NCBI RefSeq assembly: GCF_033110965.1
Contig: NZ_CP137003.1
Coordinates: 2,604,001 to 2,668,000 of the forward strand
From: Raineyella sp. LH-20
Lineage (GTDB): Bacteria; Actinomycetota; Actinomycetes; Propionibacteriales; Propionibacteriaceae
DNA length: 64,000 nt
Direction of reading: 5' to 3'
The notes beneath the pieces were generated by a model, which had not been told where the DNA came from, made no database searches, and saw only the letters and a program-made list of their open reading frames with translations. The position numbers and the translations under genes were made by a program. How positions within the stretch are numbered: position 1 is the stretch's first letter; every line of letters begins with the position of its first letter. Of the stretch, positions 37,245-42,317 are shown in pieces.

Positions 37245-39377
37245 ATGCCCGCCGCCCCGTCTGCCGTCCCGTCCGCCGAGTCCCTCCTCGATCAGTTGGA
37301 CCCCGAGCAGCGCGCCGTGGCGAGCGGCCTGACCGGCCCGATGGTGGTGATCGCCGGAGCCGGCACCGGCAAGACCCGGGCGATCACCCACCGCATCGCG
37401 TACGGCTGCGCGGTCGGTGCGTACGCCCCCACCCAGGTGCTGGCGGTGACTTTCACCACCCGAGCCGCGGGTGAGCTGCGCGGCCGGCTCCAGCAGCTCG
37501 GGGCGCGCGGCGTGCAGGCCCGGACGTTCCACTCCGCGGCGCTGCGGCAGGCGCAGTACTTCTGGCCCAAGGCGTACGGGCGGGCACTGCCGCCGCTGGC
37601 CGACAACCGCTACGGCATGGTCATCGAGGCTGCGCGCCGGCTGCGGCTGGAGACCGATCAGGGGACGGTACGCGACCTGCTCGGCGAGATCGGCTGGGCC
37701 AAGGTCTCCAACGCCGATGCCGAGAGCTATCCCCAGGTGGCCCGGCGGGCCCGCCGCGAGGTGTCCGGTCTGGAGCCGGAGACGATCGCGCGGGTGTTCG
37801 CCGGCTACGAGCGGCTCAAGGTCGACCACGGGGTGATCGACTTCGAGGACATCCTGCTGTGCTGCGCGGGGATGCTGGCCGAGCGCCCGGACGTGGCCGA
37901 GGAGGTCCGGCGGACCTACCGGCACCTGGTCGTCGACGAGTACCAGGACGTCTCGCCGCTCCAGGAGGCGCTGCTCACGCTGTGGCGCGGCGAGTCCGAC
38001 GAACTCTGTGTGGTGGGTGATCCGTCCCAGACCATTCACTCCTTCGCCGGCGCCCGGGCCGACTATCTGACCGGGTTCACTCGGCGTCACCCGGGGGCGA
38101 CAGTGGTCCGGCTGGTCCGCGACTATCGCTCGACCCCCGAGGTGGTCGACGTCGCCAACCGGGTGATCGGCCACAGTGGCCGCCCGCAGGCACTGGTCGC
38201 CCAGCGGCCGACCGGCCCAGCGCCGGTCTGGGCGGAGGCCACCGACGAGGCGGAGGAGGCCGCCGGGATCGCCGGCTGGCTGGCCGGACTGGCCGAGCAG
38301 GGCGTGGACTGGCGGGAGATGGCGGTGCTGTTCCGGATCAACGCGCAGTCGCCGCAGCTCGAACAGGCCCTCGACGCGGCCGGCATCCCCTACCTGGTGC
38401 GCGGCGCCGAGCGGTTCTACGAGCGGGCCGAGGTGCGCCAGGGGATCGGTCTGCTGCGGGCCCAGGCCCGCACCGGCCAGGTCGACGGCATCGGTGCCCT
38501 CGACCAGGCCAAGGCCCTGCTGGAGCCGATCGGCTGGCGCGAGACAGCTCCGTCGGGCTCCGGCTCGCGGCGGGAGAAGTGGGAGTCGCTCGCCGCCCTG
38601 GTCGACCTGGTCCGCGACGTCCTGGCCGAGCAGCCCGAGGCCGACCTGGCCACCGTTGCGGAGGTGCTCGACGCCCGTGCGGCGGCCGACCACGCGCCGA
38701 TCGCGCACGGCGTCACCCTGTCGACCTTCCATGCGGCGAAGGGCCTGGAGTGGGACGCGGTCGCGCTCAGCGGGGTGCACGAGGGGTCGGTGCCGTTCGT
38801 GCTCGCCACCGGCCGGGACCAGGTCGATGAGGAGCGCCGGCTGCTCTACGTCGGCATCACCCGGGCCCGCCGGCACCTGCGGGTGTCCTGGTCGCGGGCC
38901 CGCTCCGGCACCAACGGTCGCCGCCGGCCGTCCCGCTTCCTCGATGGGGTGCTGCCGGACGGTGCCACGGCGACGCCCGAGACCACCCGCCGCGGGGCCG
39001 GTGGTGGCCGGCGCCGCAGTGCGCTCAGCGCGACCTGCCGGGTGTGCGGGCTGGCGCTGCACGACGCGGCCGAGCGCAAGCTGGGTCACCACCACGACTG
39101 CGAGGTGCCGTACGACGAGGCGACCGCGGACGCGCTGCGGCGCTGGCGGCGCCAGGAGGCGAAGACCCGCAGCCTGCCGGCGTACGTGATCTTCACCGAT
39201 GCGACCCTGCTGGCGCTGGCCGAGACCCGTCCCGCCGACGAACGCGCACTGCGCGCGGTGCGTGGCATCGGGGCGGGGAAGATCGAGCACTACGGCGAGG
39301 CGGTGCTGAGGATCGTGGCGGACCCGGCCAGTGTCGACGACGACGGGGTGCTCGCCGGCACCGAACCGACGGCCTGA
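37245..39377 (+). CDS. uvrD2: UvrD2-type DNA helicase with zinc and HRDC domains
   Basis: A 710-residue SF1A helicase. The core has VIAGAGTGKTRAIT (Lys43), VVDEYQDVSPLQ, GDPSQTIHSFAGA, TFHAAKGLEWDAV and LLYVGITRARRHL. After a Gly/Arg-rich linker a zinc-binding module starts at Cys598-x2-Cys601 and ends HHHDC (Cys619). A C-terminal HRDC domain follows, with VIFTDATLLALAETRP and VRGIGAGKIEHYG. This is the UvrD2 architecture, essential in mycobacteria. The last Cys-x2-Cys of the usual tetracysteine is replaced by a His-rich HxxC. ATG at 37245 has no ribosome binding site and a damage-type -10 element placed for leaderless initiation. Confidence 0.92.
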   Translation: MPAAPSAVPSAESLLDQLDPEQRAVASGLTGPMVVIAGAGTGKTRAITHRIAYGCAVGAYAPTQVLAVTFTTRAAGELRGRLQQLGARGVQARTFHSAALRQAQYFWPKAYGRALPPLADNRYGMVIEAARRLRLETDQGTVRDLLGEIGWAKVSNADAESYPQVARRARREVSGLEPETIARVFAGYERLKVDHGVIDFEDILLCCAGMLAERPDVAEEVRRTYRHLVVDEYQDVSPLQEALLTLWRGESDELCVVGDPSQTIHSFAGARADYLTGFTRRHPGATVVRLVRDYRSTPEVVDVANRVIGHSGRPQALVAQRPTGPAPVWAEATDEAEEAAGIAGWLAGLAEQGVDWREMAVLFRINAQSPQLEQALDAAGIPYLVRGAERFYERAEVRQGIGLLRAQARTGQVDGIGALDQAKALLEPIGWRETAPSGSGSRREKWESLAALVDLVRDVLAEQPEADLATVAEVLDARAAADHAPIAHGVTLSTFHAAKGLEWDAVALSGVHEGSVPFVLATGRDQVDEERRLLYVGITRARRHLRVSWSRARSGTNGRRRPSRFLDGVLPDGATATPETTRRGAGGGRRRSALSATCRVCGLALHDAAERKLGHHHDCEVPYDEATADALRRWRRQEAKTRSLPAYVIFTDATLLALAETRPADERALRAVRGIGAGKIEHYGEAVLRIVADPASVDDDGVLAGTEPTA

Positions 39378-39396
39378 CCCGCGCGTCGGGCGAGGA

Positions 39397-40299
39397 TCAG
39401 GCACAGCCGCAGGACGGGTGCGCCCGCCAGGCCCGCCAGTGCTGACGCCAGTCACGGGTGTCCAATTCGACCGTACGGTCGGCCAGGTCGGGCCGGCCGC
39501 CGGCGGCCCAACAGGCCAGCTGGTTGAGCACGGTGGAGATCGTCCAGTCGTGCAGCGCCGCTGCGTACGGTGCCTCGGCCCCGGTCATCACGGCACGTTG
39601 TTCGATCCAGGAACCGTCGCGCGCGGCCCGGACCAGGTCGCCGCAGACCAGACAGGACGTCCGCCCGGGCAGCACGAAGGGGCCGACCAGGACCCCCTCC
39701 GGCCGCGGTCGCACCACGACATGGGGATCGTCGGCGCGCATCAACGCCTCGACCAAGGCAGGGTCCGGCTCCAGGCAACCCGGCGCGACGACGGTGGGGG
39801 TGCCTGGCGGCAGCGGTCGGCGGTCCAGCGTCGCGGCCACCAGGATCCGCTCCCGGAACGGTCCCCGTGCCAGGCCCGGAAGACCCGTCGGGGCGATCAC
39901 GTGCACCGTCCCGACACCGGCCTCGAGGAGTCGGGTGGTGAGGTCGGTGAGCAGCGACGGTGCGGCGACCACCCTGACCACCGGGACAGTGGCCAGCGCG
40001 CCCGGCTGTGGGCCGTCCACAGCAAGCAGCCCGGCCGTCCGCAGAGTTGTCACCACGTTGTCCACAACCCACGGGGCCAGGTGCCACCGGTCGGCGAGGT
40101 CGCGGAGAGAGTGTTCCCCGGTCAGCTCGGCCAGCATTCTCGACGTCCCGGGCGGAGCACCGCCGAGCCGCACCCCGCGATCTGCGTCACATCCCACCTG
40201 CACCGTCCCGTCCCTCAGTTCGAGGACCGGCACCCCGGCCAACAGCCGTGGCCGCGCCGTCGCAGAGCACGGGGAGAGGGTGTCCAGGAGATCGTCCAT
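39397..40299 (-). CDS. Orphan TOMM cyclodehydratase/E1-like protein
   Basis: A 300-residue protein resembling the E1-like (ThiF-like) partner of azole-forming cyclodehydratases. The N-terminal part (about 15-100), with DGTVQVGCDADRGVRLGG and MLAELTGEHSLRDLADRWHL, looks like a PqqD/RRE winged helix that binds leader peptides. A Rossmann-like region follows, and paired cysteines (CLVCGDL and a terminal HPSCGC) look like a structural zinc site. No YcaO enzyme, precursor peptide or transporter is encoded nearby, so the usual peptide-modifying role is not supported here. Actinobacteria commonly keep such a gene beside uvrD2. ATG at 40299 is preferred; a GTG at 40308 is possible. Confidence 0.7.
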   Translation of the reverse strand: MDDLLDTLSPCSATARPRLLAGVPVLELRDGTVQVGCDADRGVRLGGAPPGTSRMLAELTGEHSLRDLADRWHLAPWVVDNVVTTLRTAGLLAVDGPQPGALATVPVVRVVAAPSLLTDLTTRLLEAGVGTVHVIAPTGLPGLARGPFRERILVAATLDRRPLPPGTPTVVAPGCLEPDPALVEALMRADDPHVVVRPRPEGVLVGPFVLPGRTSCLVCGDLVRAARDGSWIEQRAVMTGAEAPYAAALHDWTISTVLNQLACWAAGGRPDLADRTVELDTRDWRQHWRAWRAHPSCGCA

Positions 40300-40350
40300 G
40301 CCCACCACGATCCCCCCGACGGGCCCACCGAGGGGGCTATGACAAGGGGA

Positions 40351-40381
40351 CGGACAACACTCCGGGGTGAACGGACAACAC
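40351..40381 (-). promoter_or_regulatory. Paired CGGACAACAC motif
   Basis: Copies at 40351-40360 and 40372-40381 are 21 bases apart (two helical turns). They lie 52-82 bases upstream of the E1-like gene. An equivalent pair is found upstream of the Rv3235-like gene at 16329-16369. Confidence 0.45.
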
Positions 40382-40608
40382 CGGAGGAGGGAGGGATCAT
40401 CACCGCCGCGGAGACGATCCCGGACAGGCGGAAGGCCCTCACGCTATCGATGAGATTCGCCTTCCCCTGCGAACCATCGACCACGGAGGGCCTCCTCACG
40501 CCAATCTAGGCGGCCGCGGCCGAGCCCGTCAAGGCCGCCCGGGCACCACCCGCTGTGACAGTCGTCATCGGACCGGCCGGACGGCGTGGCCGGAACTGCT
40601 GCGCTCGC

Positions 40609-40674
40609 TTGTCCACGGCTGTGGAAAACTCTGTGGACGGATTGTGGTCAACATGTGGACGGCGGGTGGACACC
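40609..40674. repeat. Phased array of DnaA-box-like repeats
   Basis: Six DnaA-box-like nonamers start at 40609 (TTGTCCACG, inverted), 40620 (TGTGGAAAA), 40632 (TGTGGACGG), 40643 (TGTGGTCAA), 40654 (TGTGGACGG) and 40665 (degenerate, GGTGGACAC core). The spacing is 11, 12, 11, 11 and 11 bases. A perfect TTGTCCACA lies at 40058-40066 inside the adjacent gene. Confidence 0.6.
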
Positions 40675-40739
40675 TGAGGGTCACCCCTTGGTATGACGCC
40701 GTTCACCAGGTGGACATCTTCGGTCGGCCCAGTCCGGGC

Positions 40740-42221
40740 TCAGTGCCCGTCCTGATCGGGGTCGGCGTCGGTGCCACGGTCCCGGTCGGCCTCGCTGAGC
40801 AGCCGTTCCAATTCCGCATCGAGGTCGTACGCCTCCGGTGCGGGCTCCGGCTCGCCGCCGTGCTGGTCGACCTCCCCGGCGACGAACCCCAGTGGGTCGT
40901 CGAGCCCGGCGGCGGTCGGCAGGTGATCGGGATGCGTCCACAGGGCGTCGCGGCCCTCGGTCCCGCGCGCCTCGCGCAGAGCGGCCCACAGGTTGGCCGC
41001 GTCCCGCATCCGGCGGGGCCGCAGCTCCAGCCCGACGACGGTGTTGAGCGCCTCCTCGGCCGGGCCGCCGGTCGCTCGGCGGCGCCGCAGCGTCTCCGCG
41101 AGGGCCGGTGCGGTGGGCATCCACCGACCGGTGGCCTGGGTGACCGTGTCGTCGACCCAGCCCTCGATCAGTGCCAGCAGGGTCTCCAGCCGCTCCAGCA
41201 CCGCCTGCTGCTCGGGCGTACGCACCGGCTCGAAGAGGCTGCCCTGCAGCTTCTCGAAGGCCACCTGGAGCGCCCCCAGATCCATCGAGGAGGGGTCGAG
41301 GTCGCGGTACATGTCCTCCATCGCGGACATGTCGATCCGGATGCCCGCGGCGTACTGTTCGAACAGCGACAGCAGTTGCGGTCGCAGCCAGCCGGCGGCG
41401 GCGAACAGCCGCTGGTGCGCCGCCTCGCGCAGCGCCAGGTACACCTGGATATCGGTGGGGGACTGGTCGAGGCCCTCGGAGAACTCCGTCACATTGGTCG
41501 GCACCAGCACCACTGCGCCGTCGTCACCGAGCGGCAGCCCGATGTCGGTCAACCCGAGCACCTCAGAGGCCAACCGCCCGAGCGCCTCGGCGACCTTCTG
41601 GCCGTACATCATCGCGCCGCTGGTACGCAGCATCGGCTGCAGCAGACCGGCCATCTGGGCCAGCTCGGCGGGCTGCTCCTCACCGGGACCGGCCGACAGC
41701 AGCGCGTCGGCCAGTGCATCGGCAAAGCTCGTCGCCACCGGGGCGATGATCCGCTGCCACACCGGCAGGGTCGAGGTGATCCACTCCGCGCGGCTCCACA
41801 CCTTGGGTGCCCGCTCGGTGGCCGGGAAGGATGTCGAGCGGTCCAGCCAGCCGTCGGCGATCCGGGTCGCTTCGGCCAGGCTCTCGCGCTGCTCGCGCGA
41901 GGGTGACGGATCCTCCCCGCGCTCGGCACAGACCCGCCGGGCGATCGTGCTCACCTGGCGCCAGTCCACCTGCCCGGGCTGCACCGGGGCGCCCGCGCCG
42001 GCCGGGTTCACGAAGCCGGCATAGCCGGCGGTCGGTCCGGGCGCGCCGGCCGCGAACATCTGCCCGAAGGCCTGCTGGAGCTGCTGCATCATCGCGGCGA
42101 GGTCCGGCGTGCCGCCGGGCCCGGCGCCGGGCAGGCCCAACCGGCGGAGCAACTCCTCGAAGTCGTTCTCCGGCTTGCCCTCGTCCGGGTCGTTGTCGTC
42201 GCGGCGAGGATCGTCGGCCAT
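40740..42221 (-). CDS. Zinc-dependent metalloprotease, DUF2342 family
   Basis: A 493-residue protein of the actinobacterial DUF2342 family, annotated elsewhere as zinc-dependent metalloprotease or coenzyme F420 biosynthesis-associated protein. The N-terminus is acidic with a Gln/Met-rich segment. The middle holds REAAHQRLF, the family's metal-site block, followed by LFEQYAAGI. The C-terminus is acidic and probably disordered. Orthologues sit beside the Lon/PDZ protease gene, as here. Peptidase activity is inferred from the family only. ATG at 42221 has AGGAG seven bases upstream; the frame is open far upstream, but that is antisense to moaE and the Lon gene. Confidence 0.85.
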   Translation of the reverse strand: MADDPRRDDNDPDEGKPENDFEELLRRLGLPGAGPGGTPDLAAMMQQLQQAFGQMFAAGAPGPTAGYAGFVNPAGAGAPVQPGQVDWRQVSTIARRVCAERGEDPSPSREQRESLAEATRIADGWLDRSTSFPATERAPKVWSRAEWITSTLPVWQRIIAPVATSFADALADALLSAGPGEEQPAELAQMAGLLQPMLRTSGAMMYGQKVAEALGRLASEVLGLTDIGLPLGDDGAVVLVPTNVTEFSEGLDQSPTDIQVYLALREAAHQRLFAAAGWLRPQLLSLFEQYAAGIRIDMSAMEDMYRDLDPSSMDLGALQVAFEKLQGSLFEPVRTPEQQAVLERLETLLALIEGWVDDTVTQATGRWMPTAPALAETLRRRRATGGPAEEALNTVVGLELRPRRMRDAANLWAALREARGTEGRDALWTHPDHLPTAAGLDDPLGFVAGEVDQHGGEPEPAPEAYDLDAELERLLSEADRDRGTDADPDQDGH

Positions 42222-42317
42222 GCTGTCACTCCTGCTCGTGGGGCATCCTGACTTGCGTCCATTGAACCGCATCCGGCCAAGCCTGTCCGGGGCGGCCGGA
42301 GCCACGCGCGAGGTGGG

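Follow-up and report, generated by a model that had tools for sequence, protein, structure and literature searches.

A phased array of DnaA-box-like nonamers in Raineyella is a candidate control region of a conserved, predicted small RNA gene

Introduction

Why does a regular row of DnaA-box-like nonamers lie upstream of an E1-like (ThiF-type) gene in Raineyella, at 0.85 of the path from oriC to the opposite point? The row was noticed in a reading made from the letters alone of the 64,000-nucleotide stretch analyzed here (the window; C1:2604001-2668000 of host genome G000, a single contig of 3,632,335 bases). That reading held that no dnaA gene is near, and dnaA is indeed about 1.54 Mb off on the same contig, at 1,099,611. 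It offered titration of DnaA, control of the E1-like gene, or binding of another factor as possible roles.

Results

The array consists of six phased DnaA-box-like nonamers

Six DnaA-box-like nonamers were located at 40609-40673 (Table 1), five on the minus strand and one inverted on the plus strand, with start-to-start distances of 11, 12, 11, 11, and 11 bp, which is the arrangement that the sequence-only reading had described. The boxes were compared to TTGTCCACA, given as the DnaA-box consensus of M. tuberculosis and S. coelicolor in excerpts of PMC4285127. Three boxes differ from it by one mismatch, three by two, and none is perfect, which makes the array boxes weak. The inverted box converges with its neighbor at 40620 across a gap of 2 bp. 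A perfect TTGTCCACA, previously placed 540 bp away inside the E1-like gene, was recovered there at a slightly greater distance.

Table 1. Features of the array locus in window coordinates
Feature	Coordinates	Strand	Remarks
Inverted box TTGTCCACG	40609..40617	+	One mismatch; closest to promoter; also in three other Raineyella genomes
Box TTTTCCACA	40620..40628	-	One mismatch; perfect TTGTCCACA in G001 and G003
Weak box CCGTCCACA	40632..40640	-	Two mismatches
Box TTGACCACA	40643..40651	-	One mismatch; same sequence in 4/4 Raineyella genomes
Weak box CCGTCCACA	40654..40662	-	Two mismatches
Weak outermost box GTGTCCACC	40665..40673	-	Two mismatches; absent from three other Raineyella genomes
Perfect TTGTCCACA within E1-like ORF	40058..40066	+	551 bp from array; equivalent site perfect in G001 and G002, imperfect in G003
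Promoter TTGACG-18-TAGATT	40503..40532	-	Hexamers identical in four Raineyella genomes
Structured small RNA	40423..40501	-	Model match; hairpin core about 40430-40496
E1-like (ThiF-type) gene	39397..40308	-	Downstream of RNA; no Pfam match; weak TIGR03882 match below cut-off
Zincin_2 / DUF2342 gene	40740..42287 (start approximate)	-	Ends 66 bp before array; synteny anchor

The array received a cluster score of 9 with its six boxes; the best score elsewhere in the window was 4, and 300 first-order Markov windows of like composition reached at most a score of 5 and three boxes. Isolated one-mismatch nonamers were not enriched, either in the window (7 found, 5.35 expected) or across the host genome (281, compared to 330 for the reversed control pattern). 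Three CCACA cores separated by gaps of 4-8 nt occur at three genomic places, one at oriC and two overlapping at the array. The reversed control of this pattern has 8 matches in the host genome, and therefore it is the content and not the count of the triple-CCACA sites that is special; in many genomes the reversed control outnumbers the real pattern because of simple repeats.

Each of the three other Raineyella genomes (3/3) carries five boxes at 11-12 bp spacing under a rule allowing up to two mismatches and permitting A at position 3. The sequence-only reading was to be given up if the array was missing from sister species or if such nonamers were equally dense elsewhere; we found the array conserved in the genus and unmatched by any other cluster in the window.

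The oriC of the same genome has a similar layout. Read towards dnaA, the dnaA-dnaN gap contains CTGTCCACA, TTGTCCACA, and CTGTCCACA at 10 and 12 bp, and the row closes with a convergent TTGTCAACA after a gap of 2 bp, as the array closes with the convergent TTGTCCACG after a gap of 2 bp. The spacings are thus 10, 12, and 11 bp at oriC versus 11, 11, 11, 12, and 11 bp at the array, with a convergent end box in each. The oriC-like layout, the conservation in the genus, and the gaps of 2-3 bp support the earlier identification of the nonamers as DnaA boxes, which we treat as predicted sites.

A promoter and a structured RNA lie between the array and the E1-like gene

Alignment of the Raineyella genomes revealed two further conserved blocks between the array and the E1-like gene, namely a promoter, whose -35 element is separated from the array by 76 bp, and a long hairpin of about 80 nt. 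The loop of this candidate small RNA is AGGGGAAG, and the conserved RNA core also matches Raineyella antarctica LZ-22. Since the conserved promoter and RNA intervene, control of the E1-like gene by the array is not the best reading here.

The possibility that the RNA is a coding leader was rejected: judged by eye, the reading frame that opens with GTG after AGGAGG is shifted between the four Raineyella genomes by a one-base indel. Between the RNA and the E1-like gene the sequence ACGGACAACAC (read on the minus strand as GTGTTGTCCGT) occurs twice without mismatch, at 40350-40360 and 40371-40381, and related copies occur at the equivalent place in the three other Raineyella genomes.

The RNA had no match at the gathering score in Rfam 15. 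The window alone gave one unrelated sub-threshold match, and a further search gave four matches, all far below the gathering score. Keyword searches of the texts of three structured-RNA surveys (PMC2864571, PMC11109978, and PMC8632094) did not reveal the RNA, and within the open-access main texts covered, neither the RNA nor a DnaA array at this locus was recognized. PMC3848588 describes abundant sRNAs outside genes in P. acnes, with their positions placed in its supplement. The family, a structured RNA of about 70-80 nt, appears to be undescribed.

The RNA is conserved in structure and widespread

A rule search for the loop GGGGAAGG or GGGGAAGC within two nested stems detected the RNA in 52 of the 99 stretches, from 95 genomes, that surround Zincin_2. 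Alignment of 67 RNAs revealed compensatory changes in 18 of 19 pairs, with 89.4% of cells paired, and a covariation of 0.479 compared to 0.231 +- 0.010 in shuffles (0/500 reached the score); slid versions scored no higher than 0.174. The model to which this alignment was fitted already contained 13 of the 19 pairs. A MAFFT alignment of 48 RNAs gave a covariation of 0.388 versus 0.238 +- 0.014 (0/500 shuffles) and compensatory changes in 12 of 15 pairs. The loop-closing pair changes from C-G to G-C in 6 of the 67 RNAs. Alignment A3, which has two opposite-strand rows, was left out of the RNA models.

Among 296 genomes of the class the RNA model matched in at least 79, always at a single place, which in two genomes also matched on the opposite strand; 15 candidates were scored per genome, and G016 and G049 were missed though found otherwise. 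A scan of the phylum, with 18 candidates scored per genome, yielded at least 3 of 246 genomes and missed the known positive G034. Because so few candidates were scored in each genome, both counts are lower bounds. The RNA is spread over 22 families of the class and one family outside it, in which two genomes have the RNA, the boxes, and a divergent YgjP-like gene. Twelve genomes that we call Mycobacterium-like or Streptomyces-like (the names are guesses) were scanned with 150 candidates each and had no convincing match to the RNA; 8 of the 12 gave matches up to E 10, the best 0.007 (family f3), and these were mostly short hairpins, often on both strands.

Genomes of 1.4-2.0 Mb have retained the RNA (loci L150, L072, and L209 in G010, G015, and G060, respectively). 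At the AT-richer L150 and L072 the outer RNA stem ends in a T run (GGGGGTTTT), like an intrinsic terminator. Three loci of family f23 (L160, L163, and L161) have a variant RNA in which the loop reads CGGGGAAGG or CGGGGAAGGT and the 5' part is conserved and of the CTCGGAAAACGA type; these are weak model matches and possibly represent a subfamily.

DnaA boxes accompany the RNA across families

We then counted boxes at 72 distinct RNA loci, a set without ten duplicate entries and three loci of identical RNA core. The 250 bp upstream of the RNA contain 146 boxes with at most one mismatch, compared to a mean of 2.3 and a maximum of 19 for 200 permuted nonamers; the RNA loci share ancestry, and the box counts are not independent trials. 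Box density was 16.4/kb at -100 to -50 and 14.7/kb at -150 to -100, and fell to 0-0.7/kb at distances of more than 300 bp upstream or more than 100 bp downstream of the RNA. At least one upstream box was present at 54/72 loci, at least two at 47/72, and at least three at 28/72; a locus with at least two was seen in 18 of the 22 families. The remaining 18/72 loci are boxless at up to one mismatch; 13 of these belong to the window's family, which contributes 27 loci in all, two are the only f21 loci, and f24, f17, and f3 account for one apiece. The array is thus not required at every locus of the RNA. G046 and G140 have arrays or boxes, and no RNA was found in them.

The arrangement of the boxes is likewise conserved. 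With up to two mismatches allowed, boxes point along the RNA direction in a ratio of 248:38. Box-to-box distances at the 72 loci peak at 11-12, 22-24, 33, and 44-45 bp, and the strength of the period of 11 was 0.79, while 500 random placements of the inner boxes gave at most 0.24. A promoter of the form TTGAC-N17..19-TRnnnT is found at the RNA start of 66/72 loci (permuted pentamers, mean 2.6 and maximum 12 loci). Phasing between the array and the -35 element was not established, the strength being 0.39 at best on distinct distances drawn from a locus set with ten loci entered twice.

A control anchored on the Zincin_2 gene, and so free of the RNA as anchor, was in agreement. Between Zincin_2 and E1 or uvrD2, or the stretch end where neither of the latter was found, clusters with scores of at least 5, 6, and 7 were present in 33, 30, and 22 of 95 genomes; the remaining 909,217 bp of these stretches held none at any of the three scores, and 60 permuted nonamers reached maxima of 3, 2, and 1. 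The recurrence of the array with the RNA over many actinobacterial families suggests that the replication initiator controls a small RNA.

Neighboring genes change around the array, promoter, and RNA

The E1-like gene had been called an orphan in the sequence-only reading, a description that we withdraw, as relatives with a ThiF domain occupy the same place in other families. Behind it uvrD2 converges. In the window the two are direct neighbors (39377-39397); other genomes have extra ORFs between them, one of which looks WhiB-like from its signature, and another of which resembles an ABC1 kinase.

Raineyella has the E1-like start about 0.12 kb past the RNA on the same strand. The RNA lies 0.6-8.1 kb ahead of the E1-like gene in 16 of the 29 genomes having both the RNA and a located E1 start, the start being placed approximately by a short match to the N terminus, obtained in 54/99 stretches. 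The gene 3' of the RNA is variously the E1-like gene (Raineyella), a short ORF with a CxxC motif (some genomes), or a convergent gene, which in seven stretches (L173, L199, L201, L202, L207, L212, and L219) terminates no more than about 35 bp past the RNA; the one tested of the seven, in L173, is an enoyl-CoA hydratase. On the 5' side Raineyella has Zincin_2; the two further genomes tested, G008 and G106, have a divergent YgjP-like metallopeptidase there, as do the two genomes outside the class. The array, promoter, and RNA thus stay together as neighboring genes change on both sides, and in many genomes the unit stands apart from the E1-like gene, for which reason the E1-like promoter was rejected as the sole target.

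The E1-like gene nonetheless has boxes of its own elsewhere. Among genomes lacking a match to RNA model R1, a group that includes L161, where the rule search does find the RNA, a box was present within 400 bp before the estimated E1 start in 23/25, and 25 of the 27 boxes concerned lie at -43 to -179 (e.g. L185, L183, L172, L165, and L168). Where the RNA is distant, the E1-like gene has an upstream box in 9/16 genomes. The two groups together have 40 such boxes, compared to a mean of 1.8 and a maximum of 11 for permuted nonamers. The window's own E1-like gene has no box within 300 bp upstream; the array is more distant, and the gene itself contains the perfect box at 40058. A box before the E1-like gene is a possible second and wider DnaA target.

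Discussion

We consider it rather probable that the array controls the conserved small RNA gene from upstream, with DnaA binding there and regulating the promoter of that gene. DnaA would bind the boxes cooperatively on one face of the DNA, with gaps of 2-3 bp, upstream of TTGACG-18-TAGATT, and the DnaA row upstream of the -35 element would activate or repress the promoter of the structured RNA in step with the DnaA cycle. The spacing has a parallel in E. coli, in which DnaA prefers tandem double boxes 2-3 bp apart in vivo, and one extra base between the boxes of the purH site causes a large loss of DnaA binding, according to excerpts of PMC11317965; this gap preference is equivalent to the 11-12 bp rule of the array. 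The DnaA targets named in the excerpts of PMC11317965 and in the review PMC8203912 are protein genes, and a keyword search of these main texts found neither 'small RNA' nor 'sRNA'.

The strongest competing explanation, although we regard it as unlikely, is that the array is mainly a site for titration of DnaA or nucleotide exchange on it, tuning initiation at oriC in the manner of datA or DARS, and that its position at the RNA promoter is secondary. The array does consist of tandem boxes outside oriC, and box clusters near the oriC of S. coelicolor and B. subtilis repress untimely initiation (excerpts of PMC4585315). E. coli datA, DARS1, and DARS2 are also intergenic multi-box sites outside oriC, and the convergent end pair of the array recalls the opposed DARS boxes I and II (excerpts of PMC8682772); in a comparison of layout only, a single pair of the array boxes converges, across 2 bp. 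Unlike these sites, the array is a directional row, and from family to family it stays tied to one promoter and RNA, a coupling that a pure titration site would not require. Across 22 single-contig genomes its locus also replicates late, lying at 0.44-0.99 of the path between oriC and the point opposite (measured at Zincin_2 or the array, some genomes being arrayless). Some titration of DnaA would follow anyway from so many boxes, and the array may have titration as an additional function, perhaps even as its principal one.

Clusters of DnaA boxes in S. coelicolor, D78, H24, and H69, were reportedly described by Smulczyk-Krawczyszyn in 2006. Like the Raineyella array, they are groups of actinobacterial TTGTCCACA boxes outside oriC; they differ in being near oriC and having a titration role, and the material covered, a part of that literature, reports no conserved RNA with them. 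The Streptomyces-like genomes sampled here (family f22, the likeness being a guess) have neither the array nor the RNA at the equivalent locus.

We think it doubtful that in Raineyella the array regulates the E1-like gene with the RNA as its 5' leader, acting as a riboswitch or attenuator. The short distance on the same strand in Raineyella fits such an arrangement, and the boxes before the E1-like gene in nearly all RNA-less genomes lend merit to E1 control there. The RNA is, however, well ahead of the E1-like gene in the 16 genomes described above, and it cannot be a leader in the seven stretches in which a convergent gene follows directly. The earlier suggestion that the array places the E1-like gene under DnaA thus fails for this locus, where promoter and RNA intervene, and retains its force for the genomes having boxes at E1 itself. 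Still less probable is binding of the array by a different protein that recognizes TGTGGA-type sites; the two mismatches in several boxes would suit it, but DnaA boxes and the genome's own oriC share the consensus, the orientation rule, and the 2-3 bp gaps of the array. An auxiliary replication origin is very improbable despite the oriC-like box module, as 40310-40740 has no AT-rich unwinding stretch beside the array like that of oriC (the lowest-GC 50-mer, starting at 40605, has 52% GC versus 42% in the dnaA-dnaN gap) and the cumulative GC skew of the window climbs until about 40 kb and wavers thereafter, without the minimum expected there.

Returning to DnaA control of the RNA gene, a further actinomycete site is relevant. 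Three f7 genomes (L282, L283, and L284) have an array of two direct boxes with at most one mismatch, a weaker one in the middle, and an inverted perfect box. The ORFs around this array in G134 resemble glpQ1, ferritin, and sodA, presumably the Rv3843c neighborhood, and the f7 array is probably the mycobacterial Rv3843c-RVnc0040 DnaA site, RVnc standing for noncoding RNA. Excerpts of PMC7738170 place Rv3843c-RVnc0040 among the five strongest DnaA sites, both in M. tuberculosis in vitro and, at homologous places, in ChIP-seq of M. smegmatis, and state that those who discovered it could see no clear equivalent elsewhere among bacteria. Like the predicted Raineyella site, it adjoins an RNA gene in an actinomycete; it differs in its chromosomal place, and RNA model R2 had no convincing match in the f7 genomes. 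DnaA at a box array beside an RNA gene may therefore have published support at another locus, to which the Raineyella site may be analogous. A second likeness is Caulobacter CcnA, which excerpts of PMC8959179 describe as a cell-cycle-linked small RNA whose gene carries DnaA boxes; unlike the present unit, this gene is at the origin, with three weak boxes inside it and a CtrA-box promoter.

A broader proposal, which we put forward tentatively and as slightly less than an even chance, is that the unit is older than the class. A phased DnaA row would directly control a single-copy RNA, through which the replication initiator signals to the cell; in RNA-less lineages it would act on the E1-like gene via a single box, and Rv3843c-RVnc0040 would be a relocated or convergent version. 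The Raineyella unit may also give meaning to the mycobacterial site. To our knowledge, the timing of replication in actinomycetes is poorly known, and a DnaA-box array beside one promoter over many families, with an RNA outside Rfam, offers a concrete handle on it in the form of one locus, one transcript, and one predicted binding protein.

The loop was also considered for pairing with dnaA, and four 8-mers complementary to it gave 2 matches in 103,281 bp of 30 dnaA loci, without pattern. Apart from dnaA, the host genome has a second, weak match to the Bac_DnaA domain (30 bits) at G000:C1:180144-180440 (L002), within an open frame of 322 aa.
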